DNA of 36,258 nt from Actinomycetales bacterium. GTDB taxonomy: Bacteria > Actinomycetota > Actinomycetes > Actinomycetales > Kineosporiaceae. Positions within the stretch are counted from its first letter, which is position 1. Each line of letters opens with the position of its first letter. The DNA lies in the NCBI GenBank assembly GCA_012719445.1, contig JAAYAH010000062.1, positions 1-36,258 of the forward strand, read 5' to 3'. The notes beneath the pieces are model-generated. The model saw nothing but the letters and a program-made list of their open reading frames with translations. It did no database searches and was not told where the DNA came from. Shown piece by piece: positions 10,085-27,405 of this stretch. The position numbers and the translations under genes were made by a program.

Positions 10085-10090
10085 AGGCTA
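10085..10090 (-). promoter_or_regulatory. candidate mdh -10 sharing bases with a stop codon
   Basis: On the minus strand this reads TAGCCT. Its TAG (10088-10090) is also the stop codon of the STAND regulator gene. It fits TANNNT about 79 nt upstream of mdh, but there is no recognisable -35. Confidence 0.3.
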
Positions 10091-12823
10091 TCCGTCACCG
10101 ATGCCGAGGCGAGCCCGGGTGTCGTCCACCAGCGGCCGGTCGGCCGGCGTGATCGGGTAGCGACGGAGCCGGCGCATCGCGTCGGCCTCGGCGAGCCGGG
10201 ACCCGGCCAGCTCCGGATCCCGGTCGGCGCAGGCCGCGGCGAGCCGTTCCAGGATCCGGGCGAGGTCGACGCTGCGGGTGGTGTGCTCCTGCGCGACCTG
10301 GTAGTGCCGCTCCGCGGCCGCGGCGTCCCCCGCGCGCAGGGCCAGGTCGCCGAGCGAGATCTCGGCCTGCGCCGTGATCCGCGGGTACTCGATCTGCCGG
10401 GCGACGGTCACCGCCTCCTCCGCCGCCGCCGTGGCCTCGGCCTCCCTCCCCCGGCCGACCTCCGCCTCGGCGAGCATGGCCAGGCACAGGCCCAGCAGGT
10501 ACGGCTCGCGGAGCTTCCGGGAGCGGCTGACGGCTCGGGTGAGCAGCCGGTGCCCGTCGTCGAACCGGCAGCCGTCCTTGGCGATCTCCCCCAGGTTGAG
10601 CAGGGCGATGACGGTTCCCCGCTCGTCGCGCCGCGCCTCGCTGATCCCGAGGCTGCGCCGGTAGTACTCCTCGGCGAGGTCGAAGTCACCGGTGTCGTGC
10701 AGGAGCGCCCCGATGTTGTTGACGGCGATGGTGACGTAACGCGGGCTGTCCACCTGCTCGGCGACCAGCAGGCACTCCCGGTGGGCCGCCAGCGAGGCGT
10801 CGTGGTCGCCGAGGGACCGCCTGGCCGCGGCGACGAGGGCGAGGACCGAGCACCGCCCGTCCGGGCGGCCCAGGTCGGGCCGCAGGGCCGTCGCCCGCTC
10901 CGCCAGGGCGACGGCTCCCTCGGCGTCGCCGTGCTCGAGCGACCCGACCCCCGCCCAGTAGGCGGCCAGCGCCGCGGCCACCGGATCGGGGGCCACGTCG
11001 GACACCGCCGCGAGCACCCTGCGGCACTCCGCGAAACGCCCGCGGACCCAGTAGTACTGCGCCAGACCGGTCACCAGGGCGACGTCGAGCAGCTGCCGGA
11101 CGTCGTCCGACGCCGGCCGTGAGCCGCCGACCCCGCCGAGGCCGGTGCCGCCCCCGGCGCCGGCCTCGGTTCCCCCGGCACCGGTCCAGAACCCGCCCGC
11201 GCCGATCCCGGACCAGGAGCCGCCGGTGGTGCCGTACCCGCCGGTGAGCCGGTACTCCCCGGTGCCCCGGAACTCGGCGGTGCTCCGGAACTCCCCGGCC
11301 CGGCCGGTCGCCCAGGCCAGCGCCGCCCGGATGTTGTCGAGGTCGAGGTCGACGGGGACCAGGTCCTCCGAGGCCGGCAGCTCGTGCCGGGACGGGTCGG
11401 CGGTGCGGACGATCCCGAGCATGAGCCGGGCGTGCGCGACGCGCACCGGCGCCTCGTGCCCGGACGTCACGAGGAGGTCCTGGGCGACCTCCCGGATGGT
11501 GTCCAGCATGCCGACCCGGGTCTCGTCCTCGGTCAGGGTGACCAGGCTGGCCTCCGCGAGCCGGGTCACCGCCTCGTCGAGGTCCTCGACGTCGAGCCCC
11601 GCCGCCTCGAGGACGGACCGCAGCGCCGCCACCGTCGGCGTCCCCCTGAAGGCGCCGAGCACCGCCATCACCTGGCGGTCCCTGGGCAGCAGCCGCTCGG
11701 TGCTCCACTCCACGGTGGCCCGCAGGGTGCGGTGCCGCCCCGGCACGTCGACGGCCTCGGCGTGCAGGCTGGTGACCCGCTCCCGGAGCTGCGCGTCGAG
11801 GGCTGCCGGGTCGTGGTCGCCGAGCTGCACGGCGGCGAGCTCGATCGCCAGTGGCAACCCGTCCAGCCGGCGGCACAGCGTGACGACCGCCGTCGCGTTG
11901 CCCGCCTCCACCGCGAAGGTCGGCAGGACCTCGCGCGCCCGCTCCACCAGCAGCACCATGGCCGGCGCTGCCATGATCCGGTCGAGTCCGGTGGCCGGGG
12001 AAGGACCTGCGCCGCTCGCCGGGGTCCCGCCGGGGGCCGGGGCCGGGCCAGGGGTGGTCGGCGACCGGCGCGGCAGCGGCGGCAGCCGGAGCGGTTCCAG
12101 CGGCCACCGGCGCTCCTCCGCCAGCCCCAGCGGGGTACGGCTGGTGACCAGGAGCTGGAGACCGGGGCACCGGGTGAGCAGCTCGGAGACCCCCGCGGCG
12201 AGGTCGGTGACGTGCTCGGCGCCGTCCACCAGCAGGAGGGCCCTCGCCCGCCCGATCCGCGCGGCGACGGACACCAGCGACGCCCCGCCGCCGGGGCGGC
12301 AGCCGACGGCGGCCGCGAGCGCCACCACCAGCTCGTCGAGGTCCCGCATCGGGCTGGCGTCGACGACGTGCACCTGGTCGAAGGACTCGGCGACCCGCCA
12401 GGCGATCTCGAGCGCCAGCCGGCTCTTGCCGACCCCGCCCGGCCCGGTGACGGTCACCAGCGGGTCGCCGGCCCCCCGCACGACCCGGCTGAGCACCCCG
12501 ACCTCGTACTCCCGGCCGACGATGGAGCTGACCGGGGCCGGGAGGTCGATCCGGCCGGCCCCTCGCTGACCGCCCGGCTCGGCGGTCGCCCTGGCCGCCA
12601 GCTCCAGCTCCCGGCGCGCCTCGGGGATCAGCCCGAGAGCGTCGGCGAGCGCTCGGACGGTGCGCAGCCGCGGACGCCGCCGCGAGGTGCGCTCCAGCAG
12701 GCTGATCGCCTGGACGCTGAGCCCGGACGCCTCGGCCAGGTCCTCCTGGGACATCCCCCGCGCGGTGCGGTGACCCACCAGCAGCCCGGAGAAGGTCACC
12801 CGCTCCGAGCCCCGCATGGTCAT
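10088..12823 (-). CDS. XRE-HTH / STAND ATPase / TPR regulator
   Basis: This 911-aa protein is a probable ligand- or partner-gated transcription regulator. Residues about 10-66 are an XRE/Cro helix-turn-helix (MSQEDLAEASGLSVQAISLLE). A STAND-class (NB-ARC-like) NTPase follows, with the sentinel SSIVGREYEV (99-108), Walker A GPGGVGKS (127-134), Walker B ALLLVDGAEHV and the arginine motif LLVTSRTPLG. A winged-helix segment comes next (about 400-480). After a Gly/Thr-rich low-complexity stretch (about 504-574), the remainder is TPR-like helical repeats such as AVNNIGALLHDTGDFDLAEEYYRRSL. I chose the ATG at 12823, with GGGGAG 5 nt upstream, over a longer open frame of Arg-rich noise. It is last in the signalling cluster, 61 nt after the FHA gene, and its ribosome binding site lies in a hairpin. 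Confidence 0.88.
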   Translation of the reverse strand: MTMRGSERVTFSGLLVGHRTARGMSQEDLAEASGLSVQAISLLERTSRRRPRLRTVRALADALGLIPEARRELELAARATAEPGGQRGAGRIDLPAPVSSIVGREYEVGVLSRVVRGAGDPLVTVTGPGGVGKSRLALEIAWRVAESFDQVHVVDASPMRDLDELVVALAAAVGCRPGGGASLVSVAARIGRARALLLVDGAEHVTDLAAGVSELLTRCPGLQLLVTSRTPLGLAEERRWPLEPLRLPPLPRRSPTTPGPAPAPGGTPASGAGPSPATGLDRIMAAPAMVLLVERAREVLPTFAVEAGNATAVVTLCRRLDGLPLAIELAAVQLGDHDPAALDAQLRERVTSLHAEAVDVPGRHRTLRATVEWSTERLLPRDRQVMAVLGAFRGTPTVAALRSVLEAAGLDVEDLDEAVTRLAEASLVTLTEDETRVGMLDTIREVAQDLLVTSGHEAPVRVAHARLMLGIVRTADPSRHELPASEDLVPVDLDLDNIRAALAWATGRAGEFRSTAEFRGTGEYRLTGGYGTTGGSWSGIGAGGFWTGAGGTEAGAGGGTGLGGVGGSRPASDDVRQLLDVALVTGLAQYYWVRGRFAECRRVLAAVSDVAPDPVAAALAAYWAGVGSLEHGDAEGAVALAERATALRPDLGRPDGRCSVLALVAAARRSLGDHDASLAAHRECLLVAEQVDSPRYVTIAVNNIGALLHDTGDFDLAEEYYRRSLGISEARRDERGTVIALLNLGEIAKDGCRFDDGHRLLTRAVSRSRKLREPYLLGLCLAMLAEAEVGRGREAEATAAAEEAVTVARQIEYPRITAQAEISLGDLALRAGDAAAAERHYQVAQEHTTRSVDLARILERLAAACADRDPELAGSRLAEADAMRRLRRYPITPADRPLVDDTRARLGIGDG

Positions 12824-12828
12824 CCCGG

Positions 12829-12852
12829 CTCCCCGGTCGGCACCGACCGGGG
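12829..12852 (-). promoter_or_regulatory. hairpin enclosing the ribosome binding site of the STAND gene
   Basis: On the minus strand, arm CCCCGGTCGG pairs perfectly with CCGACCGGGG (12831-12852), separated by 2 nt. The 3' arm supplies the GGGG of the GGGGAG Shine-Dalgarno sequence (12829-12834), only 5 nt before the ATG. The site would be closed unless the structure is opened by a translating ribosome, protein or ligand. The hairpin could also act as a partial terminator after the FHA gene. Confidence 0.55.
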
Positions 12853-12884
12853 GAACGGGGCAGCCGGTCCGGCCGGGGACACGG

Positions 12885-13946
12885 TCACGGCACCGACGGC
12901 GCCGCCGGGATCTCGCCGGGGGCCGCGCGCCGCACCACGAGCCTGGTCCAGGCACCGACGTAGACCCGGTCGCCCTCGTCGAGCTCGTGGCGCTGGTTCG
13001 GGGACACCGGGTCGGTGGGCAGCGGTCCGCTGGCCGGGCCGACGTAGGTCCCGTTCGCGGACTGGAGGTCCTCGATCCACCAGCGCTGGCCGTCCGTGCT
13101 CAGCTGGGCGTGCCGTCGGCTGACCCCGACGTCGGCGCTGCAGTCGATCTGCGGCGCGATGCCGCGGCTGGTCGAGTGCCGCCCGATGAGCAGGCTCCGC
13201 TCGGCGAGCGGGAGCACCTGCGGCATGCCGGGTGAGGGACACGGGTCGGGGCTCTGCTGCAGGGCGTACCAGCCGGGGTCGACCCACACCTCGACGACCC
13301 ACTCCGGGACGCCGGACGTACTCGCCGGGGCGGTGGGCGGCGCCAGCGGGTCCGGCCCGGCTGTCCCGACCGGCCCGGTGGCCCCGATGGACCCGGTGGC
13401 CGGGTCGTACCCCTGACCGGCCGGGTCGTACCCCTGACCGGCCGGGGCCGCGGCCTGCCGGCCGGAACCTCCCGGCCCGGACAGCGGGTCGTAGCCCTGG
13501 TGTTCCTCGGCGCCGGCAGGGGCCGCGGCGCCCGGCACCCCCAGCGGGTCGTACCCCTGCGGAGCCTGGGTGCCCTGGCCGACGAGCTGGTCGAAGGACA
13601 GCGGCTCCGGCCGCGGCATGGCACCGGTGGTGAAGTCGTAGCCGCAGTTCTCGCAGAACAGCGAGCCCTCGACGCTCTCGGCGGAGCAGTTCGGGCAGGT
13701 GACGTAGGAGGAACCGGCCTGGCCGAGGTACCCGCCGGGCCCGCCGGGGTCCGACGCACCGCCGAGACCGGGATCCGGGTAGCCGCCCTGGCCGGCCGGG
13801 GAGTACCCCCCGGCCGCGCCGGAACCGGGCGACGCGTACCCGCCCGCCGCGTCCGGGCCGCCGACTCCCTGCAGCGGGGTCCCGCAGACGTCGCAGTAGT
13901 CGGCCGCGATCGAGACGTGGCCTTCCGGACAGGTGAAGGTACTCAC
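12885..13946 (-). CDS. zinc-ribbon and FHA domain protein
   Basis: This is a phosphothreonine-binding adaptor, 353 aa and probably cytosolic. A first zinc ribbon (about 6-21) has the ligands CPEGH and YCDVCG. A Gly/Pro/Tyr-rich linker leads to a second ribbon (about 83-101) with CPNC and CENC. Another low-complexity linker (about 128-205) repeats the motif GYDP. The C-terminal FHA domain (about 255-345) has the canonical phosphopeptide-binding set GRHS, VSRRHAQL and SANGTYVG. There is no ETT-type phosphoacceptor motif at the N-terminus as in GarA/OdhI, so it is not the usual PknG substrate. It sits between the VWA and STAND genes and near PknG and a PP2C, so its ligand is probably a cluster member phosphorylated by PknG (inference). 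The ATG lies 45 nt after the VWA stop. Confidence 0.9.
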   Translation of the reverse strand: MSTFTCPEGHVSIAADYCDVCGTPLQGVGGPDAAGGYASPGSGAAGGYSPAGQGGYPDPGLGGASDPGGPGGYLGQAGSSYVTCPNCSAESVEGSLFCENCGYDFTTGAMPRPEPLSFDQLVGQGTQAPQGYDPLGVPGAAAPAGAEEHQGYDPLSGPGGSGRQAAAPAGQGYDPAGQGYDPATGSIGATGPVGTAGPDPLAPPTAPASTSGVPEWVVEVWVDPGWYALQQSPDPCPSPGMPQVLPLAERSLLIGRHSTSRGIAPQIDCSADVGVSRRHAQLSTDGQRWWIEDLQSANGTYVGPASGPLPTDPVSPNQRHELDEGDRVYVGAWTRLVVRRAAPGEIPAAPSVP

Positions 13947-13991
13947 CGCAGCACGCTCCTCAGGGAATCACCGACGTCGGCTCCGGATCTC

Positions 13992-15272
13992 TCATCGACG
14001 GACCCTGCTCGTCTTGGTGGAGCTGGTGTCGAGCGCCATTTCGTCGATCTTGCTCACGTCCCGTCGCAACCGAACGGTACCCGCTTCGGGGTTCTCGATG
14101 TCGACGACCTTGCGAAGCCGCTGGGTGACCTCCACGTTGCCGGTGCCGGCCGCGAGCTGGACGGCGCGGCCCAGCTTCGCCGTCGCGGCCGCGTCGTCCC
14201 CCGCGGCCTTGGCCGCAAGGCCCTCCTGGATGGCGTCGGCGAGCTCGGCCTGCCCGGTGTAGTGCGCGACGTGGGGATTGATCCGGGTGGTCAGCGCGTC
14301 GTCGGCCGACCACATGGCCTTGACGAGGGACTGGGCCACCTGCTCGCCGCCGACGGCGAGCTGGACCCTCGCCGCGAGCTGCTCGGCGCCGATCGGCTTG
14401 GCAGGCAGCCGGACGGCGACGTGGTAGTCGCGCGACTCGTCCCCCCAGGAGCCGGTCGGGTAGGCGCCGGTGAGCGGGTTCACCTGCTGCCGGTGAGCGG
14501 TCAGGTCCTCGACGGTCGGCGACACCTGCCGCACGAAGAGCACCTGCGCACCCTGCGGGGTCCACACCCGGAGCTGGGCCTCCGCGACGCCCCTGGCCAT
14601 CGAGGCGCGCATGAGCCGCTCGAACTCCGCGGCCAGCTCGTACGGCTGCGGGATGAGGTCCACCGTGCCGAGCAGCCCGGTGGCGATCCGGCGCAGCTCG
14701 GCGACCTCCCAGTCGGCGCCGACGCCCCTGGCGTCGCACTGGAACTGCCCGCGCGAGGCCTCGATGGCCGCGCTGAGCTGCTCCGGGGACTCGTGCTGGT
14801 TCTGCCCGTCGGTGAGCAGGATCGCGTGCCGCTGGGTCGCCGACGGCACCGAGGCGAAGACCCGGGTGGCGAGCCGCAGCCAGGTGCCCATCGCCGTACC
14901 GCCGTCGGCGCTGAACGAGGCGACGGCGGCCTTGGCCGCCTGCCGGTTCCTGGCGTCCATCCGGACCATGCCCGACTCGGAGGCCTGGAACGGGTAGGCC
15001 AGCCGGGCCTCGTGGCTCCCGGCGATCACCGCGAACCAGGTGCCGTCCAGGACGTGGTCCACGGCGGCGGCCGCCGCGGCCTTCGCCGCGTTGATCTTGT
15101 CGTAGGCCATCGACCCGGAGGTGTCCACGATGATGATCTCCGCGGCCTCACCGGAGCCGGTCCGACCGGCCTCACCGGCGCCCGTACAGGTGACGGTGAC
15201 GATCGCGTGGACGTCCGTGCCGCCGTCCGGCAGGAACTCGTTCTGGTAGACGGAGGTGGAGAACTGGGCCAT
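13992..15272 (-). CDS. VWA domain protein with intact MIDAS
   Basis: This 426-aa protein has no signal peptide and is probably cytosolic. An N-terminal strand region is followed by a von Willebrand factor A domain (about 45-225). The metal-ion-dependent adhesion site is complete: DTSGSM (Asp50), the Thr in DGGTAMGT, and Asp in LLTDGQN. A beta-rich middle region (about 230-330) and a helical C-terminus (about 345-390) follow. VWA proteins of this kind scaffold complexes with AAA+ ATPases and signalling enzymes, and both types are encoded nearby. GAGGAG precedes the ATG at good distance. It lies 34 nt after the PP2C stop and 45 nt before the FHA gene, so it is almost certainly co-transcribed with both. 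Confidence 0.9.
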   Translation of the reverse strand: MAQFSTSVYQNEFLPDGGTDVHAIVTVTCTGAGEAGRTGSGEAAEIIIVDTSGSMAYDKINAAKAAAAAAVDHVLDGTWFAVIAGSHEARLAYPFQASESGMVRMDARNRQAAKAAVASFSADGGTAMGTWLRLATRVFASVPSATQRHAILLTDGQNQHESPEQLSAAIEASRGQFQCDARGVGADWEVAELRRIATGLLGTVDLIPQPYELAAEFERLMRASMARGVAEAQLRVWTPQGAQVLFVRQVSPTVEDLTAHRQQVNPLTGAYPTGSWGDESRDYHVAVRLPAKPIGAEQLAARVQLAVGGEQVAQSLVKAMWSADDALTTRINPHVAHYTGQAELADAIQEGLAAKAAGDDAAATAKLGRAVQLAAGTGNVEVTQRLRKVVDIENPEAGTVRLRRDVSKIDEMALDTSSTKTSRVRR

Positions 15273-15306
15273 GGAACGCGGGCTCCTCTCGTGCTCGGGT
15301 ACTCCG

Positions 15307-16794
15307 TCAGACGCCGGACGGCTCGGCCTCGGTCGCGGCTCTCCCGGCGATCCTGGCGAGGGCGACCGTCACGTTGTCATGACCGCCCTGGCCGTTGGCC
15401 CAGGCCACGAGATCCTCGGCGAGCTGGAGCGGGTCGGAGGGCTCCGGGCCGGCGAACTCGCGGACCAGGGCGGCGAGCTCGGCCGCGTCGGAGCGGTAGT
15501 TCCACAGCCCGTCGCTGCACAGCAGCAGCCAGCCGGAGCGGTCGGGTTCCAGGCAGACGGTGCGGGGGGTGGTGTCCGGGGCGTCGACGCCGAGCCAGCG
15601 GGTGATGGCGTGCGCGTGGTGACCGGTCTCGGCCTCCTCACGGGGCACCCCCATCGCGATCCGCTCGGCGGCCCAGGAGTCGTCGGTGGTGAGCTGGCCC
15701 GCGTCGCCCTCGTCGGGGATCCAGTAGGCGCGACTGTCACCGACCCAGCCGACGACGATCCTGCCGCTGTCGACGACCGCCGCGACCAGGGTGCACGACG
15801 GTGAGTTCCGGCCGGTCGCCTCGTCCGGGGTGACCGCGATGACGGCGGCGTTCGCCGCCGCGCCGGCGGCCCGGACCCGGTCGACGGCTGCGGCGAACCG
15901 CGGGTCGACGGCAGGACCCGACGGGACCGTGGTCTCGGCGTTGTCGACAAGACGCGCGTCGGGGTCAACCGGCGGAGGCTGCCCCGGCTCGGGACCGGCC
16001 GCGAGCAGGACCTCACGAGCCGCCTTCGCGGCGGCCAGGCTGGCCACGTCGGAGTCCGCCGAGGTGGTGACCCCGTCGCAGACGACGAGGACGGCGCTGC
16101 CGCCGCCACCGACCGTGGCCGGCTCGGCGTCCGAGGCCACCGCCATGGCGTCCTCGTTGCGCCCGTGCCGGATCCCGCGGTCGCACACCGCGGCGATCCA
16201 CGAGGAGGGCCGGTCGTCGAAGTGGTCCCGTCCCCGTGGCGCCCGCGCGCCGCAGGTCTCGCAGTACCCGTCCGCCGCCACCCGGCCGCCGCAGGACCGG
16301 CACGCGGCAGCACCCGCCGGGCCGGTGGTCGCTGCGGCGGTGCCCTGGTCCGTCGTCGCAGCGGCGCCGGCCTCGGCGGCGCTGCCTTCGGCGGCTGGGG
16401 CAACGGGCCCGGCGGCCGGGTCCATGGCGGCGGGGTCCGTGGCGGCGGGGTCCGTGGCGGCACCGGAGGCGCCCCGGTCACCGGGAACGCGGCCGACGCC
16501 GTTCGGGGGGGTGGCGGTGCCGAGCCCTCCCGCCGGCCCGCCCGCGCCGTCCGTCAGGCCGGGGACCGCGACGACGGCGCCGCACCCCTCGCAGAACAGG
16601 TCGGCCGGGCCGATCCCGGCGCCGCACTCCGGGCAGGCGGCCCCGGTGGCGACGGATCCCCCTGCCGCCGACGCGTCCGGACCGGACCCGCCGGCGCCCG
16701 GCTCGACGGCGTCCCCGTCACGGTCGTTCGTCGTGCCGATCACCTTGGGATCGCCCTGCCCTCCACCCGCCATGCCGCCTACCGTCTCATTCAC
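15307..16794 (-). CDS. PP2C-family Ser/Thr phosphatase with two zinc ribbons
   Basis: This is a metal-dependent protein phosphatase likely opposing PknG. The first 60 residues are low complexity. Ribbon one (CPEC, CEGC) and ribbon two (CRSC, CETC) flank a long Ala/Gly/Pro linker. The phosphatase domain (about 190-485) has CDRGIRHGRNEDA, VVCDGVTTSADSD, VGDSRAYW, LLCSDGLW and GGHDNVTV, so the metal-binding aspartates are present. The usual DGMGG is replaced by DGVTT. There is no transmembrane segment, unlike the PstP type that partners PknA/PknB. The start is ambiguous: GTG at 16794 or ATG at 16773 (residue 8), neither with a strong ribosome binding site. The 81-nt gap after pknG leaves room for a separate promoter, but I see no convincing one. 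Confidence 0.9.
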   Translation of the reverse strand: MNETVGGMAGGGQGDPKVIGTTNDRDGDAVEPGAGGSGPDASAAGGSVATGAACPECGAGIGPADLFCEGCGAVVAVPGLTDGAGGPAGGLGTATPPNGVGRVPGDRGASGAATDPAATDPAAMDPAAGPVAPAAEGSAAEAGAAATTDQGTAAATTGPAGAAACRSCGGRVAADGYCETCGARAPRGRDHFDDRPSSWIAAVCDRGIRHGRNEDAMAVASDAEPATVGGGGSAVLVVCDGVTTSADSDVASLAAAKAAREVLLAAGPEPGQPPPVDPDARLVDNAETTVPSGPAVDPRFAAAVDRVRAAGAAANAAVIAVTPDEATGRNSPSCTLVAAVVDSGRIVVGWVGDSRAYWIPDEGDAGQLTTDDSWAAERIAMGVPREEAETGHHAHAITRWLGVDAPDTTPRTVCLEPDRSGWLLLCSDGLWNYRSDAAELAALVREFAGPEPSDPLQLAEDLVAWANGQGGHDNVTVALARIAGRAATEAEPSGV

Positions 16795-16875
16795 GACGCG
16801 TCCGTGCCCAGCATCCGACCTGATCGCCGTTTCGGCGTCGCTCGTGATCGTGACACACCCCGCTCCGCCGACGCC

Positions 16876-19086: not shown

Positions 19087-19099
19087 GGGATCCGTCCCG

Positions 19100-20311
19100 T
19101 CATGCCGTCCGCCCCGGGGGCGGGATGGGTGGGGTGGGAGCAGGCGCGGTGCCGGGTGGGCTGGGAGCAGGCGCGGTGCCGGGTGGGCTGGGAGCGGGCG
19201 CGGGAGCTGCGGGGGTGCGCACCAGGGACTGGTAGCGGGAGACCAGCCGTGCCGTGGCGTCCAGGTCGCACGGGGTCGCCCTGAGCGCCTCCCGTGCGGC
19301 GCGGCAGGCCGCGGCGACCGCCGGGTCGGCGTCCCGTCCGGTGGCCGCGGCCATGGCCCGGTAGCCGTCGAGCAGTCCGCGCAGCTCCCGGTGGTGGGCC
19401 AGGGCTGCGGAGTAGGCGGTCTCGGCGACACCGAGCGCCCGCTCGACGGCGGAGAGCCGGGCGAGGTAGGTGACCACGTCGCCGGGCGCGGTGGGGACCG
19501 GGCCGAGCGCGGTGACGTCGGGGACGGCGAACCGGGGGACGGGCGTCACCGCGGCGACGCAGCGGTCCACCAGTTCACGCAGGGTGGAGGCCCGCGCCGT
19601 CAGCTCGGTCCGCAGGGTCGCGGCGCGGGCGGCGTCCCGGCCCGCGTCCCGGTGCCTGGCCAGGGCGACGATGAGGTCCCGCTCCGCCAGCACCGCGTCG
19701 GTCTCCAGCCCTCTCAGCCCTCCGGTGACGTCCGCGCCGCGCCGGGCCCGCGCCGACAGCTCGACCAGCCGGTGGTCGAGGTGGTCGAGGGTGGCTGCGG
19801 CGTCCGGCGGCAGCCCGGCCGGGTCGGGTGGGTCGGTCACCAGGTCACGGATCCGTTCCACCTGGGCCCGCAGCGTGCGCATCCTGGCGGCGACGTCGAG
19901 CCCCAGCGGGTCGAGGTCGAGCCGGGCCCGCAACTGGACGGCGAGCGCGTCGGACAGCCGGCAGGCCTCGACGACGGAGACCGCCATCCCGACGCCCGCG
20001 CGCGCCTCCAGCCGGCCCCAGACGAGCTGGGAGATCCGTTCCCGGTCCTCGGTGGTGACCCGGCCGGAGTCCCAGGCCGCCAGGATCTGGTCGTGCCGGT
20101 CGGCCACGGCCTGCCACAGGGCCATGGACAGGGTGATGTCCGCGGTGTAGCTGTCCGACTCGGCCGCGTCGAGGGCCGCCTGGTCGAGCCGGTCGAGCTC
20201 GGCCTTGCGCTCCTCCCGCCAGCGGCCGAGCTCCTCCAGGTAGGTGCGCAGCTCCTCGGCCGTCGCTGCGACCCCGAGCCGGCCGGGGGCGAGCGGGGCG
20301 ACAGCGGTCAC
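19100..20311 (-). CDS. unknown helical protein between glnH and pknG
   Basis: I do not recognise this 403-aa protein. It is almost wholly alpha-helical by appearance, rich in Ala, Arg, Glu and Leu with heptad-like stretches such as ELRTYLEELGRWREERKAELDRL, and has no signal peptide or membrane segment. A Pro/Ala tail (about 375-403) repeats the peptide APSPPGT and is encoded by 27-bp tandem DNA repeats. The GTG start at 20311 overlaps the glnH stop as GTGA, giving strong translational coupling; upstream in-frame residues look like glnH shadow. pknG starts 13 nt after it. The location suggests it bridges the membrane sensor GlnX/GlnH and cytosolic PknG (inference only). Confidence 0.8.
   Translation of the reverse strand: MTAVAPLAPGRLGVAATAEELRTYLEELGRWREERKAELDRLDQAALDAAESDSYTADITLSMALWQAVADRHDQILAAWDSGRVTTEDRERISQLVWGRLEARAGVGMAVSVVEACRLSDALAVQLRARLDLDPLGLDVAARMRTLRAQVERIRDLVTDPPDPAGLPPDAAATLDHLDHRLVELSARARRGADVTGGLRGLETDAVLAERDLIVALARHRDAGRDAARAATLRTELTARASTLRELVDRCVAAVTPVPRFAVPDVTALGPVPTAPGDVVTYLARLSAVERALGVAETAYSAALAHHRELRGLLDGYRAMAAATGRDADPAVAAACRAAREALRATPCDLDATARLVSRYQSLVRTPAAPAPAPSPPGTAPAPSPPGTAPAPTPPIPPPGRTA
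19136..19189. repeat. 27-bp tandem repeat in the Pro/Ala tail
   Basis: Two perfect 27-bp copies (19136-19162 and 19163-19189) are followed by a partial third copy to about 19204. They encode nine-residue repeats at the C-terminus of the unknown helical protein. The period is a multiple of three, so copy-number changes would keep the frame. Confidence 0.8.
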
Positions 20312-21318
20312 GGTCTCCGCCCGTAGACCGGGTCGGGAGGCGCGGGGGCTGGGCCGAGGTCGGCCCGCAGCCAGCGGTCGTAGACCCGGCGCCACTCCCC
20401 GTCGCGACGCATCCGCTCCAGCACGCCGTTGACGAACCGGACCAGGTCCTGGTTGTCCTTGGAGATGCCCAGCCCGTAGGGCTCCTCGCTGAACGCCGCG
20501 CCGACCACCTCGGCGTAGGGGTCCTGGGCGGCCAGTCCGGCGAGGATGGCGTCGTCCCCGGTGATCGCGTCGACCCGGCCCTGCTGGAACAGGACCAGGC
20601 AGCCGGTGTGGGTGTCGGCAGGCATCGGGAGCGCCGTCGGCTGCTCCTTCCGGAGGTTGTCGAGGCTGGTCGACCCCTTCGGGGCGCAGACCCGGCGCTT
20701 CGCCAGCCCGCCGATGTCACGCACCCCGGAGCCCTTCCGGACCAGGATCTTCTGACCGGCCCGGTAGTACTCGGCGGAGAAGGCGATGTCGGCCCACCGC
20801 GCACAGTTGATCGTCATGGTCCTGGCCACGATGTCGACGTCGCCGTTCTGCAGGGCCGAGATCCGCTGGGATGTGGTGATCACCCGGAACTCGATCTTGT
20901 CCTCGGAGCCGAGGATCGCCTGGGCGACGGCGCGCAGCACGTCGATGTCGAACCCCTCGATCCTGCCGGTGAACGGGTTGCGCGACCCCCACAGCAGGGT
21001 GTCGGCGGACACCCCGGCCACCAGCCGCCCCCGCTTGCGGATCTTCGCCATGGTGCTCCCAGCGGGCAGGGAGCCGGGACCGGGCAACGCTCCCTGCGGC
21101 GCGTAGGAGGCCAGCGGGTTCCCGCAGTCGGGGGCCTGGGTGGCCGCGGCGGGCGGCGGCGCGGCGTCCCCGCGAGACGGCTCGGGCAGCGGGGTCGATT
21201 CGTAGTCGGTCCCCACCGTGCACCCGGCCAGCACCAGCCCGAGCAGCGCGACCACCGCGGCCAGCGGGAGTCGCCGGCCCGAGGCGGAGGCGGTCCTGCT
21301 CGCAGACATCCCGGTCAT
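20308..21318 (-). CDS. glnH: glutamate/aspartate-binding lipoprotein of the PknG sensing system
   Basis: This is a periplasmic-type solute-binding protein, 336 aa, anchored as a lipoprotein. The N-terminal hydrophobic stretch ends in the lipobox LVLAGC with the lipidated Cys at 33, followed by a Pro/Ala linker. The mature region is an SBP_bac_3 amino-acid-binding fold with GFDIDVLRAVAQAILG, an arginine/aspartate-containing ligand region DVDIVARTMT and the typical C-terminal KDNQDLVRFVNGVLERM. No ABC permease or ATPase gene is nearby. With glnX upstream and pknG downstream this matches the mycobacterial glnX-glnH-pknG sensing arm, in which GlnH reports external Asp/Glu through GlnX. The ATG overlaps the glnX stop as ATGA, and the next gene overlaps its stop as GTGA. 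Confidence 0.93.
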   Translation of the reverse strand: MTGMSASRTASASGRRLPLAAVVALLGLVLAGCTVGTDYESTPLPEPSRGDAAPPPAAATQAPDCGNPLASYAPQGALPGPGSLPAGSTMAKIRKRGRLVAGVSADTLLWGSRNPFTGRIEGFDIDVLRAVAQAILGSEDKIEFRVITTSQRISALQNGDVDIVARTMTINCARWADIAFSAEYYRAGQKILVRKGSGVRDIGGLAKRRVCAPKGSTSLDNLRKEQPTALPMPADTHTGCLVLFQQGRVDAITGDDAILAGLAAQDPYAEVVGAAFSEEPYGLGISKDNQDLVRFVNGVLERMRRDGEWRRVYDRWLRADLGPAPAPPDPVYGRRP

Positions 21319-22619
21319 CGGTACTCCTCCAGCCGCAGCGCGAACCCCCACCAGGCGCAGACCCCGGCGAGCAGGCCGATCACGAGCGCCAGCAGGCCGA
21401 TGACGCCCATCCGCGGCCCGGGATCCGACAGCCGGTCCGCGGTCTCCCCGCTGGTCTTCTCCAGCACCCACCGCGAGCGGGCGTCGAAGGAGTCGAAGAC
21501 GGCGTTCGACGAGCCCTTGCCGGTGCTCGTGGCCAGGGTCACCGCGGCGTCCCAGGAACCGCCGTCGTCCTTGGCGCGGATCTCGGCGTGGCGCTTCGTC
21601 CACTCGCCGAGCACCTCGGGCAGGTCTTGGTCGTCGACGTCCAGCCCGGCCAATCGCTCGGTCTGCTCGGCAGCCCGCGCCGACGACTCCTGCCACGTCT
21701 GCTCGAACGCGGCACCGGAGCCCCGGGCGATGAGGGTCAGGCTCTCGTTGGACTTCGCGTCGAAGGCCGCGATCCTGGCCCGTGCCACGGCGACGCTCGC
21801 CGCGTACGGACCGTCCCGCACCCGGTCGACGTCCCCCTGGACGTCGATCATGGCGATGGTGCCGACGAGCGCTCCCAGGAGCACCGCGACCCCCGCGACG
21901 GTCAGCGGCGGGTTGAGCACCCGCCGGGTCCTGCGGGCCAGCCACACCATGACGGCGGTCAGCACGGCCAGTGCGAGCAGGCTGCCGACGAGGAGCCAGG
22001 CCCAGGACAGGCCGGCGAACCGGAAGGCGTCGGCGACCCGCTGCTCGTTGGCGTCGACGAGGGCGGCCAGGATGGGCAACGCCTCGCTCCGCAGCAGCGA
22101 CCCCGCGTCGCGCAGGTACTGGGCGCCCACCGGGTAGCCCTGCCGGTTGTTCGCGCGGGCCGACTCGACCAGCCCGGAGTACTCCAGCAGGTGCGCGTTG
22201 AGCACCCCGAGGGCGTCGGCGTCCGCCGGCTGGGCGCGTGCGGCCTCGGACACCAGCCGGGCGGCGGAGTCCAGTGCCTCCACGTACTCGGCCCGCTGCT
22301 CGGCGGGTTCCAGACCGCCGACGAGGAAGGCGTTGGTCGCGCTGGCGTCGGCCCTGACCAGGTCGGTGTGGATGGTCTGCAGCCGCACCAACTGGGCCGC
22401 GTCGTCCCGGGCGGCGGAGATCGCGTCGGCCCGGAGCCGGAACGCCTGGCCGCCGGTCACCCCGAAGACCAGGGCGACGAGCACGGCCAGGACGGCGGCC
22501 CGCCGGAGCCTGCCGGGGGTGCCGTCCATCTGCTCGCGCACCCGGGCCACGACCGCGGCGACCTGGCGGCGCACGACCCCGGGAGCCCCGGCCGCCGGAG
22601 GCGATGCGAGGTTCGTCAT
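21315..22619 (-). CDS. glnX: four-helix membrane signalling protein GlnX
   Basis: This is a membrane partner of GlnH that passes the ligand state toward PknG. In its 434 aa I see four hydrophobic segments: about 38-60, 198-222, 228-252 and 403-427. The long segments between the first and second and between the third and fourth are helical, consistent with two external ligand/protein-sensing bundles similar to four-helix sensor domains. Length and topology match M. tuberculosis GlnX (about 440 aa). There is no HAMP-kinase or methyl-accepting domain. The ATG at 22619 overlaps the AAA+ gene stop as ATGA. Residues upstream of it in the frame belong to the Pro/Gly/Glu tail region of the AAA+ gene read in another frame. 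Confidence 0.87.
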   Translation of the reverse strand: MTNLASPPAAGAPGVVRRQVAAVVARVREQMDGTPGRLRRAAVLAVLVALVFGVTGGQAFRLRADAISAARDDAAQLVRLQTIHTDLVRADASATNAFLVGGLEPAEQRAEYVEALDSAARLVSEAARAQPADADALGVLNAHLLEYSGLVESARANNRQGYPVGAQYLRDAGSLLRSEALPILAALVDANEQRVADAFRFAGLSWAWLLVGSLLALAVLTAVMVWLARRTRRVLNPPLTVAGVAVLLGALVGTIAMIDVQGDVDRVRDGPYAASVAVARARIAAFDAKSNESLTLIARGSGAAFEQTWQESSARAAEQTERLAGLDVDDQDLPEVLGEWTKRHAEIRAKDDGGSWDAAVTLATSTGKGSSNAVFDSFDARSRWVLEKTSGETADRLSDPGPRMGVIGLLALVIGLLAGVCAWWGFALRLEEYR

Positions 22620-24277
22620 CTGGGTGGCCTCTCGTCTCCCGGATTCCCGGGCTCCTGGTTCTCCGGACCCTGGTCTTTCGGGTCCTGGCTCTCCGGACCC
22701 TCGTCCCCCGGGTCCTGGTCCGCCGGATCGAGGATCTCCGACTCGCCGGTGTCCGGCTCGCACCTGTCCGGCTCGTGGTGCTCGCCGTCGTCCCCGCCGT
22801 CGACGAGATCCTCCGGCAGCAGCTCCCGGAGCTGGTCGACCGTCGGCTCGCCGACGTCCCGGAGCCGCCAGGCCAACCGTCCGATCGCCGCCTCGAGAAC
22901 GTTGCGGGCGAACCGACCGTTCCCGAAGCCCTGGTCCCTCGGCGCCGCCTCGACGAGTTCCCGGAACCGCGCGAGGCAGGCGGGGACGGGACTGTAGTCC
23001 GCCTCGGCCGCGAGCCGTTCGAAGATCTGCGCCAGCTCGTCGTCGGTGTAGTCGACGAACTCGATCACGGTGCGGAACCGGCTGGACAGCCCGGGGTTGG
23101 CCGCGATGAAGGCCGCCATCGGGTCCGGGTACCCGGCGACGATGACCACCAGGTCGTGCCGGTGGTCCTCCATCTCCTTGACCAGGGTGTCGATCGCCTC
23201 GTCACCGTAGGAGTCGCCCGCGAGCGAGTACGCCTCGTCGATGAAGAGCACCCCGCCCTTCGCCGAGGCGACGACCTCGCCGGTCTTCGTCGCGGTCTGG
23301 CCGAGGTAGCCGGCGACCAGCTCGGACCGGTCCACCTCGACGAGCTGTCCCTTGGACAGCAGCCCGAGGGCGCGGTAGATCCCGGCGACGAGCCGTGCCA
23401 CCGTGGTCTTGCCGGTGCCGGGGTTCCCGACGAAGACGAGGTGCCGGGTCAGCGCCGGGCTGCGCAGACCGGCCTCGGCCCGCAGCCGCTCGACCCGGAG
23501 CACCTGCGCCTGCCGGTGCACCTCCCGCTTGACGTCGGCGAGGCCGATGAGGCCGTCCAGTTCGGCGAGCAGCTCGTCGAGGGTCGGCGCGGGCGGCTGC
23601 TCGCGGTCCGCGGCCTCACCCTCCGGCGCGAGCGCCGCCTCCTCCCGGGCGGCCGTCTCGCCGCCCTCCAGCCCGGTCCACGAGGACGGGGTCGGCCGGC
23701 CCCCGCCCGGCCGCCAGTCGGCCGTGCCGAGCAGTCCCCCCGGCAGACCGGGCAGCCCGCGCGGTCGGTCGGACGGTCCCCCCGGCAGGCCGAGCAGCCC
23801 GCTCGACGGGTCGGGCAGTCCACTCGACGGGTCGGGCAGCCCACCGGCGGCACCCCGGCCCGGCTCGACGGCCCGCAGTTGCGCCGCGGCGGCGACCGAG
23901 GCGTTGCCGACCACCCGGATGCTCGGCTCACCGAGGACGCAGGCTGCCGAGGCGACCTCGGCGAGCGCCCGCGCGTAACCGGCCGCGTGCGTGGACCCGG
24001 CCGCGACGAGGGCGTCCAGGGTCGTGGTCGGGGCACCGCGCCAGCGGCGGCCCCGGACCGCGGCGTCGAAGAAGTCCTGGACCCCGGTGACGTCCAGGCC
24101 GGCCTCCCTCGACTGGGTCACCCAGTCGCTCGGCGCACCCGGCACCGACTCGGCCACGGCGGCGGCGAGGGCAGCCCCCTCGGCGCGGGCGACGGCCTCG
24201 GCGACCCCGGCGAGCTCCCCTGCCCGCCCGAGCACTCTCAGTGCCGCCGCGAGCCCCGGCCCCTGGGCTCCTGCCAT
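22616..24277 (-). CDS. CbxX/CfxQ-type AAA+ ATPase
   Basis: This 553-aa protein is probably cytosolic. The N-terminal region (about 1-140) is a helical domain of unknown type, followed by a Pro/Gly linker with a duplicated DPSSGL motif. The AAA+ module (about 235-480) is of the CbxX/CfxQ/SpoVK class. It has ELDGLIGLADVKREVHRQ, Walker A GNPGTGKTT (284-292), pore-region GQTATKT, Walker B GVLFIDEAYSL (342-352), and arginine residues in NPGLSSRFRT. The last 55 residues are an acidic Asp/Glu/Pro/Gln tail. It resembles EccA of type VII secretion, but no other secretion gene is present. It would remodel a partner complex using ATP; VWA and TelA proteins are candidates (inference). Its ATG overlaps the previous stop as TGATG, and its stop overlaps glnX. 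Confidence 0.9.
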   Translation of the reverse strand: MAGAQGPGLAAALRVLGRAGELAGVAEAVARAEGAALAAAVAESVPGAPSDWVTQSREAGLDVTGVQDFFDAAVRGRRWRGAPTTTLDALVAAGSTHAAGYARALAEVASAACVLGEPSIRVVGNASVAAAAQLRAVEPGRGAAGGLPDPSSGLPDPSSGLLGLPGGPSDRPRGLPGLPGGLLGTADWRPGGGRPTPSSWTGLEGGETAAREEAALAPEGEAADREQPPAPTLDELLAELDGLIGLADVKREVHRQAQVLRVERLRAEAGLRSPALTRHLVFVGNPGTGKTTVARLVAGIYRALGLLSKGQLVEVDRSELVAGYLGQTATKTGEVVASAKGGVLFIDEAYSLAGDSYGDEAIDTLVKEMEDHRHDLVVIVAGYPDPMAAFIAANPGLSSRFRTVIEFVDYTDDELAQIFERLAAEADYSPVPACLARFRELVEAAPRDQGFGNGRFARNVLEAAIGRLAWRLRDVGEPTVDQLRELLPEDLVDGGDDGEHHEPDRCEPDTGESEILDPADQDPGDEGPESQDPKDQGPENQEPGNPGDERPPR

Positions 24278-24897
24278 CACGCACCCCGCCCCGGCGGTCC
24301 GGACGAGGGCCCGTGCTCGGAGGCGGCCGGCCCCGGCGGGATCGACGGATCCGGTGGGGCTGCCGACCCCGGCGGGATCGCGCCGAGGTCGAGCCCGCCG
24401 CCGGAGGCCGCCGGGCCGAACTTCTCGGCGAGGAACCGGCCGTGGGCGACGAGCGCGTCGGCGTCCCCCCGGCACACGGCGTCGAGGACCTCGTCCATGG
24501 TGTCGGCGAGCAGGTCGAGCTGGTCGCACAGCACCATGAGCGAGGTCCGGCCGCCCTCGACCGGCCGGCTGTCCGCCCAGCTCCGCGGCAGCCGCAGGTA
24601 GGCACCGATCGCCTCGGGCAGGTAGTTCGTCGCGGTGGCCATCACCGAGTGCGCGCGCGGGCTGCCCGCGCCGAGAGCGCTCAGCCGCGGGACCGTCTCC
24701 CGGACCGTGGCCACGACCCGGTCCACCCGGAAGGTGACCATGGCCGGGACAGTCCCCGCGACCATCTCCTCGACCCTGGTCAGCGACTGGAGGAGGTCGG
24801 CGCTGGTCGGCACGGCAGGCAGCTGCAGCCGTTCCCGTTCCTGTGATCGCCCGCCGCGTCCGAGGAGGCGGGCGATGAGGTCACCCAGTGATGCCAT
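24277..24897 (-). CDS. unknown 206-aa protein between telA and the AAA+ gene
   Basis: I do not recognise this protein. The N-terminus (1-15) is a short amphipathic stretch, MASLGDLIARLLGRGG. Residues about 28-165 are predicted helical, with NYLPEAIGAYLRLPRSWA as a distinctive core and CDQLDLLADTMDEVLDAV as a coiled-coil-like helix. The C-terminal 40 residues are a Pro/Gly/Ser tail. There is no signal peptide or transmembrane helix. It starts 12 nt after the telA stop and its stop overlaps the AAA+ start, so it is produced together with both. A partner role with TelA is likely but unproven. Confidence 0.8.
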   Translation of the reverse strand: MASLGDLIARLLGRGGRSQERERLQLPAVPTSADLLQSLTRVEEMVAGTVPAMVTFRVDRVVATVRETVPRLSALGAGSPRAHSVMATATNYLPEAIGAYLRLPRSWADSRPVEGGRTSLMVLCDQLDLLADTMDEVLDAVCRGDADALVAHGRFLAEKFGPAASGGGLDLGAIPPGSAAPPDPSIPPGPAASEHGPSSGPPGRGA

Positions 24898-24909
24898 GGC
24901 GGTGCGTCG

Positions 24910-26169
24910 TCACCGGGAGCCGCCGGAGAGCCTGCCCGGACCGTGCCCGAGGTCGAGCGAGCCCTCGACGACGCTGCCGTCGGCGATCCGCGCGTCGTGC
25001 CGGGAGACCCGGTCGAGGTACTGCTGGGACTTGACGACCTCGGTCTCCAGGGTCCCGATCGTCGCCGCCATGGTGTCCAGGGCCTGGACCTTGAAGGTGT
25101 CGATGGCGTCCATGGTCGCGTAGATGTTCTGGAACGCGGCCTGGAGCTGCGGCAGGCCGATCGTCGCCGACGCCGCCTGCTGCTGGATCTGGATCGAGTT
25201 GTCCCGCAGCAGTTGCGAGGTCCGCTCGATCATCCCCGAGGTCGTCGTGTTCAGCGCCGTGATCTGGTCGAGCACGAGCTTCTGGTTGCCGAGCGCCTGG
25301 GCGACGATCACCGCGGTGCGCAACGCCGAGATCGTGGTCGTCGACGCGCGGTCGACCCCCTTGATGAGCTCGAGGTTGTTCTTGATCACGACATCGATGG
25401 CGAGGTAGTTCTGGATCGAGACGGCGAGCTGGGTCAGCAGGTCCTGGTGCTTCTGCCGGACGTAGAACAGGACGTCCTCGCGCAGCGAGCGCGCGCGGTC
25501 GGGGTCGGTCGCCTCGACCTCGGTGACCCGGGCCGACAGCCGCGCGTCCAGCCGCTCCGCGACGTAGATGTACTGGTTGAGCCGGGCCATGGTGTCCCAG
25601 AGCTGCTGCTTCTCCTGGCCGAGGGCCACGTTGTCCCGGCGCAGCTCGTCCTGGCCGTCGAGCAGCGCGTGCAGGATGGCGTCGATGTGGCTCTGGGCAC
25701 CCTGGTACTTGCGGAAGTAGTCGGTGACCCGGTCCCCGAACGGCAGCATCCCGAACAGCTTGCGCTGCCCGTGCACCCCCTTGGGGTCGAGGTCCTCCAC
25801 CGTGCGCCGCAGCTCCAGCAGCGTCGAGCCGATCTTCGACCCCTCGGCGAGACCGCCGGACTGCAACGCCTTCACCGGCGTCTGCAACAGCCGGTTGGAC
25901 GACTCGGCGGCGCGACGGATGTCGGCGTCGCCCATCGACCGCACGTCGGCTGCCCGTGCCGTGAACTCCGGCGAGTGCGGCTCGGTGGTGAGCAGCGAGC
26001 CGAGGTAGTCGTCGACCTTCTGGTCGAGGCCGGGAAGCGCCGCGGCGTCGATGGAGGGAGCCATCCGGGGCGCCTGGGTGTCGGCCACCCGCGCCGGGGG
26101 CGCCGGTGGGGTCAGGGTGAGCATCGGCTCCGTCGCCCCAGGAGGAGAGAGGGGAGTCGGCTCGGTCAT
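24910..26169 (-). CDS. TelA-family (toxic anion resistance) protein
   Basis: This 419-aa protein is of the TelA/KlaA family. The first 55 residues are Pro-rich and disordered; the rest is a long helical, coiled-coil-rich body. Family hallmarks include KLFGMLPFGDRVTDYFRKYQ, the region around ILHALLDGQDELRRDN, LNQYIYVAERLDARL and NNLELIKGVDRASTTTISAL. Despite the name, TelA proteins occur widely with VWA, TerD and AAA+ genes in stress-response neighbourhoods and their molecular action is unclear. I would not infer tellurite resistance here, because no terB, terC or terD gene is present. The ATG at 26169 has GAGGAGG at 7-nt spacing and is the first gene of the minus-strand cluster, opposite the PilZ gene. 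Confidence 0.9.
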   Translation of the reverse strand: MTEPTPLSPPGATEPMLTLTPPAPPARVADTQAPRMAPSIDAAALPGLDQKVDDYLGSLLTTEPHSPEFTARAADVRSMGDADIRRAAESSNRLLQTPVKALQSGGLAEGSKIGSTLLELRRTVEDLDPKGVHGQRKLFGMLPFGDRVTDYFRKYQGAQSHIDAILHALLDGQDELRRDNVALGQEKQQLWDTMARLNQYIYVAERLDARLSARVTEVEATDPDRARSLREDVLFYVRQKHQDLLTQLAVSIQNYLAIDVVIKNNLELIKGVDRASTTTISALRTAVIVAQALGNQKLVLDQITALNTTTSGMIERTSQLLRDNSIQIQQQAASATIGLPQLQAAFQNIYATMDAIDTFKVQALDTMAATIGTLETEVVKSQQYLDRVSRHDARIADGSVVEGSLDLGHGPGRLSGGSR

Positions 26170-26514: not shown

Positions 26515-27405
26515 ATGGCGGAGGAGCCGACCCGAGAGCGGGTGTCCCCCGAGATCGCACTCCCCCCGGTGAACACGCTGCTGCGGATGAGCATCGGCAC
26601 CCGGGTTGCGGCCGACGACGAGGACCGGATGCCGGAGGTGTCCACCCGCGTGGAGAACGTGGTCCCCGGCCCGGACGGCAACCCGGTCGGCGCGGAGCTG
26701 CTCGTCGCCGCGCCGCGCTTCGCCGGCGACCTGGACGTCCCCTTGCCGACGACCCCGTGCGAGGTCACCTGGCTCACCGCCAGGGGGATCCACGAACTGC
26801 CGACGGGCTTCGTCCGCGTCGAGGCCGAGGACGGGCTGCGGATGTGGCGGCTCCGGGTGACCGGACCCGCCTACCGGGTGCAACGCCGCCGCTACTTCCG
26901 GGTCACCTGCGCGTTCCCGGTGACCCTGCGGGTGACCGAGCGGCCCGGGGACACGGACACCCCGGCGGACGACGAGACCCGCCCGGGAGACCGGCCGTTG
27001 TCGCCGTCGCGCCCGAACCGCGCGGGGGCACAGAACCTGTCGGCGTGGCAGCGCGCCGGTGGGATCGTGGCCCGCCAGGACCAGGAGAAGGAGGCCGAGC
27101 CGGAGGAGGTCCCGCTCATCGGCCACACCGTGGACCTCAGCGAGGGCGGGGCCCGGTGCGCCATCAAGGGACCGCTGCTCGAGGCGGGCACCAAGGTCGC
27201 CCTGAGCCTGATGCTGGGCGAGGAGCGGGTCGAGGCGACGGCCGTGGTGCTGCGGGCGATAGAGAACGCCTCGGGCACCGCCTCGGCCCCTGACCTCTAC
27301 GAACTGGCGGTGAGCTTCGAGAACCCCGACGAGTACGGGGACAAGCTGCGCCGGATCGTCTTCGCCGAGCAGATCCGGGCCCGCCGGATGTCGCAGGAGG
27401 GCTGA
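26515..27405 (+). CDS. PilZ-domain c-di-GMP receptor, YcgR-like
   Basis: This 296-aa soluble protein has a YcgR-like N-terminal beta domain (about 20-118) and a PilZ domain (about 120-285). The two c-di-GMP contact motifs are present: RxxxR in VQRRRYFRV (Arg125 and Arg129) and DxSxxG in DLSEGGARCAI (207-217). A charged, low-complexity insertion of about 55 residues (143-200) separates them, where typical PilZ domains have a short loop. The ATG at 26515 is preceded by an AGGAGG at 26496-26501, slightly distant. The gene is divergent from the telA-led cluster and shares its upstream region. No flagellar gene is in the window, so a brake role as in E. coli YcgR cannot be assumed. Confidence 0.88.
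   Translation: MAEEPTRERVSPEIALPPVNTLLRMSIGTRVAADDEDRMPEVSTRVENVVPGPDGNPVGAELLVAAPRFAGDLDVPLPTTPCEVTWLTARGIHELPTGFVRVEAEDGLRMWRLRVTGPAYRVQRRRYFRVTCAFPVTLRVTERPGDTDTPADDETRPGDRPLSPSRPNRAGAQNLSAWQRAGGIVARQDQEKEAEPEEVPLIGHTVDLSEGGARCAIKGPLLEAGTKVALSLMLGEERVEATAVVLRAIENASGTASAPDLYELAVSFENPDEYGDKLRRIVFAEQIRARRMSQEG

Follow-up and report, generated by a model that had tools for sequence, protein, structure and literature searches.

The window analysed here covers positions 1 to 36,258 of contig JAAYAH010000062.1 (forward strand; assembly GCA_012719445.1) of an Actinomycetales bacterium of the family Kineosporiaceae, and it contains a row of genes centred on pknG. Eleven genes lie on the minus strand between positions 10088 and 26169 and point in one direction, as described in a first-pass annotation that treated them as one signalling system. 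Content and order are kept in distant families, which is more than chance would give, and ten of the eleven genes belong together. Judged from sequence comparison, these ten are built as one unit within another: seven genes make up a widespread core, and three more, limited to one group of PknG proteins, stand in front of it.

Read in coding direction, with all coordinates on the minus strand, the row starts with the front module. Its first gene, telA (24910..26169), encodes a helical protein of the TelA family (PF05816, 307 bits against a gathering cut-off of 30). It is followed by its partner here, u206 (24277..24897), encoding a 206 amino acid helical-bundle protein of no named family, and by a gene for a CbxX/SpoVK/EccA-like AAA+ ATPase with an N-terminal extension (22616..24277; PF00004 and PF17866). 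The core begins with the membrane signal transducer glnX (21315..22619; NF058618, 316.9 bits, cut-off 250), the solute-binding sensor protein glnH (20308..21318; SBP_bac_3) and hel (19100..20311), encoding a 403 amino acid all-helical protein that may be an adaptor. Next is pknG (16876..19086; PF16919, PF00069 and PF16918), whose product combines a zinc ribbon, rubredoxin, kinase and TPR; the N-terminal zinc ribbon, CSQPGCTGTILDGYCDVC, was located by motif match at 19018..19071. The last core genes encode a PP2C phosphatase with two zinc-ribbon-like motifs (15307..16794; PF13672), a VWA protein with a MIDAS (DTSGSM) and a VWA_3_C domain (13992..15272; PF13768 and PF18571) and an FHA protein with a double zinc ribbon (12885..13946; PF00498 and PF12773).

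The overlaps and gaps reported in the first-pass annotation agree with a recount from the stop codons and the starts judged most plausible. There are 12 nt between telA and u206; u206 and the AAA+ gene overlap, the latter starting at 24277 or 24280; overlaps of 4 nt join the AAA+ gene to glnX, glnX to glnH and glnH to hel; and hel is separated from pknG by 13 nt. Further downstream the spacings are 81 nt (pknG-PP2C), 34 nt (PP2C-VWA), 45 nt (VWA-FHA) and 61 nt (from fha to the eleventh gene). A promoter and terminator scan was uninformative, giving no promoter-like and three terminator-like elements, every one on the plus strand.

The assignment of glnX, glnH and pknG to the GlnX-GlnH-PknG pathway is well supported. 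The closest solved relative of the window PknG is Mycobacterium tuberculosis PknG (2pzi, E 1.2e-137); the rubredoxin, kinase and TPR domains are all present, and the protein contains VVLKG, DFKPDN and IDLGG. The best solved relative of GlnH is M. tuberculosis GlnH (6h2t, E 1.7e-68). GlnX scores over the subfamily cut-off given above and under that of the equivalog NF041460 (116 versus 780 bits). The AAA+ protein falls below the NCBIfam equivalog cut-offs for SpoVK (TIGR02881, 254.9 versus 422.95), EccA (228.1 versus 466.65) and CbbX (212.6 versus 459.25), which places it in the same AAA+ group as CbbX, SpoVK and EccA, predicted to have none of those named functions. Its Walker A and B motifs are found in 90 of 90 homologues. 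PP2C matches NF033484 with 96.6 bits, under the cut-off of 230; GDSR is present in all 121 homologues and SDGL in 120, and the N-terminal motif of the window protein reads GRNEDA. Besides DTSGSM the window VWA protein contains LTDG, and DxSxS and TDG occur in 114 and 113 of 115 homologues, respectively.

Neither the u206 nor the hel protein of the window has a Pfam or NCBIfam match at E 0.1. Their relatives give stray weak matches (best 0.0052, in one of 17 u206 proteins, and 0.00049, in one of 47 hel proteins) to no consistent family, and no PDB sequence match was found for the u206 family. An AlphaFold2 model of u206 is helical, with a mean pLDDT of 76 and core blocks above 90, and the hel model is all helical with a pLDDT of 91.8. 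Fold searches with both models found nothing in the PDB at an E value of 0.001 or below. In a second comparison the best match of u206, to a designed protein (Z 12.1, root mean square deviation 2.6, 104 residues aligned), and that of hel, to EzrA (Z 10.5, deviation 8.6, 246 aligned), lie within common helical arrangements and were not used.

A GlnX profile search of 396 genomes of the phylum gave a match in 46, 26 of them over the cut-off, and a PknG_TPR search gave a match in 143 of 394 genomes of the class and in 16 of 58 relatives (window genome counted in each). From these, 80 stretches of up to 20 kb were taken: all 16 of the relatives' matches that are not in the window itself, a single GlnX match (G189) belonging to a different class, and 63 class-level PknG_TPR loci, the last a non-random set hand-picked to spread over families. 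Together with the window, these 81 loci were searched by jackhmmer with the eleven window proteins; several stretches stop at contig ends, so some absences are due to missing sequence. A match to pknG was found in 81 loci, glnX in 73, glnH in 70, FHA-like in 62, PP2C in 59, VWA in 58, hel in 54, AAA+ in 18, telA and u206 in 17 each, and the eleventh gene, encoding a STAND protein, in five. The order glnX-glnH-hel-pknG-PP2C-VWA-FHA recurs in families f1, f9, f89, f122, f125, f96 and f6 and in two extra copies of f7. Of these labels, f1, to which the window genome belongs, is taken to be Kineosporiaceae, since the PknGs of Kineosporia babensis (L134) and of the f1 locus L004 do not differ in the tree; f6 is taken for Streptomycetaceae and f7 for Mycobacteriaceae. 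In f95 the same core genes have glnX-glnH at the opposite end of the row, and in G189 glnH-glnX are on the opposite strand. Only the three known genes, or fewer, are found in f115, in most f7 loci and in a few f96 loci.

To follow the front module, genome contigs were scanned with a u206 alignment, and the best 80 of 285 relatives, which are the nearest and hence a non-random set, were kept; these come from named genomes and are the named loci referred to below. Where the stretch leaves room, telA lies upstream in 79 of 79 loci, and AAA+ is present in 71/72, hel in 67/68, pknG downstream in 65/66, PP2C in 64/65, glnX in 68/70 (weak matches from 20 bits counted) and glnH in 60/70. VWA and FHA, at the far edge of these stretches, were left out of the counts. 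By stop position, the genes found have an identical order in all 80 loci. One locus, L166 (Nostocoides jenkinsii), has telA-u206 and an AAA+ fragment followed by unrelated genes, so that each later gene has one of its misses here; about 1 kb past its u206, on the downstream side, a frame holds a run of unknown residues. In L155 the AAA+ gene is a trace only.

Family names are given for 70 of the 79 telA-bearing loci, and comprise at least eleven families: Kribbellaceae, Promicromonosporaceae, Dermatophilaceae, Intrasporangiaceae, Propionibacteriaceae, Cellulomonadaceae, Kineosporiaceae, Microbacteriaceae, Nocardioidaceae, Ornithinimicrobiaceae and Dermacoccaceae. Two further records, one under Streptosporangiaceae and one under Streptomycetaceae, are suspected to be mislabelled and were excluded from this count. 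The cluster genes of L108 (Streptomyces sp. SID13031) and L142 (Sphaerisporangium cinnabarinum) score like those of Kribbella and Cellulosimicrobium, and these two records are possibly mislabelled. The gene order is thus not confined to very close relatives, the outcome which the first-pass annotation had named as refuting its proposal, and its view of GlnX-GlnH-PknG as one portion of a bigger conserved group of genes, with upstream and downstream parts both kept, is borne out. The helical protein that it grouped with the upstream genes is indeed a conserved member, but by its distribution (54 of 81 loci) it belongs to the core.

The downstream boundary lies at fha. The eleventh gene (10088..12823) encodes an HTH-STAND-TPR regulator with an HTH, an AAA_16/NACHT-like NTPase and TPR, and had been proposed as the output of the system. 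Of the 54 loci with fha, 52 continue for 1.5 kb or more past this gene, and the window itself is the only one with a STAND match there; the gene is therefore a neighbour outside the system, and its role as the output is rejected. L024 was left out of the 52, its FHA protein being itself fused to a STAND region, and the three other STAND matches are located elsewhere in L060, L061 and L069. At the other end, upstream of telA, a divergent gene (26515-27405, plus strand) looks PilZ-type by eye; a search with it matched the window itself only.

The PknG phylogeny bears on the history of the two units. In a maximum likelihood tree of 99 rows (quick method, SH-aLRT support only, midpoint root for drawing), all 35 telA-bearing rows fall within one group of 40, with a support of 100. 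Of the other five rows, contig ends truncate L007, L008 and L015, L017 is a second copy that comprises just glnX-glnH-pknG, and L006 is a true exception. The core without telA makes up 43 of the 99 rows, some cut by contig ends, and core-type rows fall to either side of the root as drawn. Within f7, a group of eleven PknGs (eight three-gene and three other) is sister to the core pair L059/L069, with a support of 99. Most simply read, the core of seven genes is old, and the front module joined it once. Likewise, with the root uncertain, the three-gene operon would most simply be a reduced form that lost hel, PP2C, VWA and FHA, perhaps repeatedly. That these seven genes came together in this order several times over seems less likely.

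TelA is a widespread family of unclear function. Stand-alone telA genes were also collected, from genomes of families whose pknG loci lacked telA, and the cluster TelAs and 14 such TelAs are separated by one branch with a support of 99. A weak u206-like open reading frame (36-83 bits; some have membrane-like segments by eye) lies near telA in ten of these 14 loci (L167-L180), so telA and u206 were probably paired before they became linked to PknG. No AAA+ relative was found in any of the 14. One of the stand-alone loci that was scanned, L175, has a protein with solute-binding and VWA domains nearby. In the parts of PMC3498285 and PMC12791056 that bear on this family, xpaC-yaaN (telA) is placed in the sigma-W regulon, which responds to envelope stress, and TelA in nisin tolerance.

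A feature shared by several core proteins is the zinc ribbon. The CxxPGCxG...DGYCxxC ribbon at the N-terminus of PknG has a similar counterpart in PP2C and in the FHA protein, both of which carry a second ribbon of FCExC type. With a tightened motif the PknG ribbon was found in 77/82 PknGs of the ten-gene type, 35/44 of the core type, 3/16 of the three-gene type and 2/5 others, that is, in 112 of 126 with extra genes versus 3 of 16 in three-gene loci. Two of these three carriers, L027 and L036, lie on contigs that stop just after pknG, so these could be cores that were cut short. A looser motif places the ribbon in 105/121 PknGs with a PP2C neighbour versus 6/25 without. Both sets of counts are uncorrected for relatedness. 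Among PP2C loci the ribbons of PknG and the FHA protein co-vary weakly (p 0.015). The first-pass annotation had placed the zinc ribbon on one FHA/VWA scaffold, but it is found on kinase, phosphatase and FHA protein alike. The ribbons may serve as docking devices. The FHA proteins were compared in a hand-chosen alignment of 18, from which two f96 rows (L028 and L035) without the first ribbon in an earlier alignment were left out. A Ser/Thr-rich motif preceding the kinase domain, present in 32/82 PknGs of the ten-gene type versus 0/65 others, is suggestive and too loose to build on.

The Asp/Glu-type pocket of M. tuberculosis GlnH includes Arg147, Thr162, Ser164, Arg169, Trp232 and Asp250 (PMC6069109, in part). 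Arg147, Thr162, Arg169 and Asp250 are kept in the window protein, Ser164 is replaced by Thr and Trp232 by His; as the pocket residues are mostly kept, the ligand is likely an amino acid. Nine named loci lack GlnH (L095, L098, L099, L115, L117, L124, L141, L143 and L144), mostly from Dermatophilaceae and Ornithinimicrobium, L166 being the tenth glnH miss. Eight of the nine have a weak GlnX match (23-74 bits), and L141 has none and another membrane-type protein instead. Since their other cluster genes remain, the sensor looks like a separable input. Those of the sensor-swap loci that were read (L095, L098, L115, L124 and L141) come from Agilicoccus, Mobilicoccus, Austwickia and Ornithinimicrobium.

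Several observations touch on glutamate metabolism. The window genome encodes a GarA-like protein (NF041660, 178.6 bits, under the cut-off of 200) with a DTT motif and with gcvH- and MerR-like neighbours by eye, and has a match to OdhA-type 2-oxoglutarate dehydrogenase in a 1269 amino acid frame. In G418 (f104), a single unbroken frame of about 2,300 residues stands where fha would be expected (L024:2-6274 with L191:11415-14000, both minus strand), in the order zinc ribbon, FHA, cyclase-like stretch (by eye), STAND, TPR and NAD-glutamate dehydrogenase (NAD-GDH). Its ATG overlaps the VWA stop, directly after pknG-PP2C-VWA, and pknG runs off the contig; G418 also carries an ordinary large GDH. 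No second frame above 2,000 amino acids with PF05088 was seen among the matches listed (280 of 394 genomes have a match). Two genomes, G050 and G235, have a match to NAD-GDH some 7 kb away from an additional pknG match, and in G050 a gene for an amino-acid permease separates the two. Extra f7 pknG copies without glnX/glnH matches adjoin NAD-GDH in L060:3297-12579 and L061, and an amino-acid permease in L060 and in a third f7 locus, L058:8528-12555.

Taken together, we propose an expanded PknG pathway, with an amino-acid-gated PknG, its own PP2C, a ribbon/FHA/VWA assembly and a TelA/u206/AAA+ output; whether this is right or wrong we consider evenly balanced. GlnH would sense an extracellular amino acid, and GlnX would relay the signal to a unit of the PknG TPR and the helical protein. 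PknG would then phosphorylate itself and its partners, the zinc-ribbon FHA protein could dock on phosphothreonine, and the co-encoded, ribbon-bearing PP2C could reset the switch. The VWA protein may gather the assembly by MIDAS-type binding. In clusters that have the front module, this assembly would control the AAA+ remodeller, which in turn would act on TelA and u206, probably at the membrane. Amino-acid supply would in this way set the envelope state and, via the separate GarA, the flux of 2-oxoglutarate and glutamate. Every step past GlnH, GlnX and PknG is an inference. Recruitment of an FHA substrate by the autophosphorylated N-terminus of PknG has been described (PMC8546545, in part).

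The same gene row could be a conserved operon and not one machine, in which a PknG switch is merely co-transcribed with a TelA/AAA+ stress unit and with a PP2C-VWA-FHA unit serving other kinases. We regard this as unlikely. It would account for the separability of front and core, for three-gene operons without the other genes, and for the gaps of 81, 34 and 45 nt ahead of PP2C, VWA and FHA, in contrast to the tight overlaps between the genes before them, but the constant order in the named loci and a like ribbon on kinase, phosphatase and FHA protein speak for a physical partnership. Rather improbable, in our view, is a conflict or stress switch resembling TerY-P, which amino-acid sensing would do no more than trigger and which would act in defence or envelope repair instead of metabolism. 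The TerY-P triad (PMC11090510, in part) consists of a VWA protein, a PP2C and a Ser/Thr kinase with a zinc ribbon, hence of the same three activities, and lies beside SpoVK-like ATPases in some CoCoNuT systems. The envelope-stress regulation of xpaC-yaaN also fits such a switch. Against it, the kinase here is a PknG with a C-terminal TPR and not a TerY-P kinase, the gene order is steady, and extra PknG copies lie near amino-acid genes.

Alternatively, the FHA protein could be a second GarA, so that phosphorylation by PknG releases glutamate and 2-oxoglutarate enzymes and TelA, u206 and AAA+ are incidental. The FHA-STAND-NAD-GDH single frame and weak matches of the FHA protein to the FhaB (38.9 bits) and OdhI (32.6 bits) profiles are in line with this. 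However, by eye the 18 aligned cluster FHA proteins show no conserved GarA-like TT switch motif, and the organism has a separate GarA-like protein and no large NAD-GDH, and we think it very unlikely.

A number of observations weigh against the expanded PknG pathway and the history proposed for it. L006 (G752, f1), in the PknG group of the ten-gene type, has matches to glnX, glnH, pknG, PP2C and FHA, and none to telA, u206, AAA+, hel or VWA, with room present upstream. Stand-alone TelA occurs elsewhere in 14 of the 38 genomes chosen, and an envelope role of TelA is suggested by analogy with Firmicutes. Three-gene f115 rows stand beside the f7 group (support 88), which means that reduction possibly occurred more than once or that the root is different, and another root could weaken the reduction reading. 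The zinc ribbon is a common module whose link to PP2C is confounded by descent, and co-loss of the ribbons in kinase and phosphatase is unsupported (p 0.42 among PP2C loci). The GlnH position of M. tuberculosis Trp232 is His in the window. Of 146 PknG homologues, 127 show the catalytic Asp pattern and 128 the DLG pattern, and the FHA motifs occur in 53-69 of 85 proteins, with many sequences cut at locus ends. The FHA-GDH fusion is a single case from a metagenome-assembled genome, and, PF05088 having no match in the window genome, it is not directly transferable to the window organism.

PknG is among the best-studied bacterial Ser/Thr kinases, and the cluster bears on how GlnX reaches it and on what reverses its action. 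The phosphatase, the FHA reader and the helical protein between sensor and kinase are concrete candidates for GlnX-PknG coupling and for reversal, and the conserved row makes both testable in harmless actinomycetes, while TelA gains a defined set of signalling partners. The textbook three-gene operon, in turn, has the look of something larger that was pared down. Taken furthest, and tentatively, since we hold it more probably wrong than right, the mycobacterial and corynebacterial operon would be the relic of a seven-gene signalosome with phosphatase, FHA reader, VWA organiser and helical coupler, held together by a docking code of common zinc ribbons. This signalosome would, in Kineosporiaceae and no fewer than ten further families, drive TelA, u206 and AAA+, coupling extracellular amino acids to envelope remodelling.

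In PMC6069109, PMC8546545 and PMC9769921 (each in part) the GlnX-GlnH-PknG operon is described with three genes, an arrangement reported to be conserved in Actinomycetales (PMC6069109); 'phosphatase', 'VWA' and 'TelA' were not found in the main text of PMC6069109, and no open-access PMC title among the matches listed describes the seven- or ten-gene set. The window shares with the mycobacterial and corynebacterial system the same three families in the same order, and its GlnH and PknG are nearest to M. tuberculosis structures. Unlike the described operon, it has hel between glnH and pknG, PP2C-VWA-FHA downstream, telA-u206-AAA+ upstream and a zinc ribbon on PknG. Like GarA/OdhI, the cluster FHA protein would be an FHA protein of the PknG pathway, but it differs in its two zinc ribbons and, by eye in the 18 aligned proteins, in having no conserved TT switch motif.

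As in the Firmicutes xpaC-yaaN operon, telA stands beside a partner gene; here, however, the telA-u206 pair is coupled to a kinase cluster, and the XpaC family is absent among the Pfam matches of 17 u206 members. Membership in the GAP1-N2 and vWA-MoxR conflict systems was provisionally set aside, the window AAA+ being CbxX/SpoVK-like, with no search of the loci for GAP1-N2, MoxR or effector domains made. In actinobacteria a kinase, often with a zinc ribbon, occurs with PP2C and vWA beside GAP1-N2 GTPase systems (PMC7159879, in part); this set has the same three activities and is, as described there, limited to actinobacteria, and PknG, GlnX, TelA and FHA go unnamed in that description. With TerY-P the window shares a VWA protein with MIDAS, a PP2C, a ribbon-bearing kinase and the company of a SpoVK-family AAA+. 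The TerY-P kinase ribbon is C-terminal, whereas that of the window is N-terminal, on a PknG with rubredoxin whose C-terminus is PknG_TPR, and the cluster adds FHA, GlnX/GlnH and hel. Membership in TerY-P thus fails on ribbon position and kinase type, although the cluster may work like TerY-P. Of the known systems, it is the GlnX-GlnH-PknG pathway of which the cluster is a larger and broadly conserved form.

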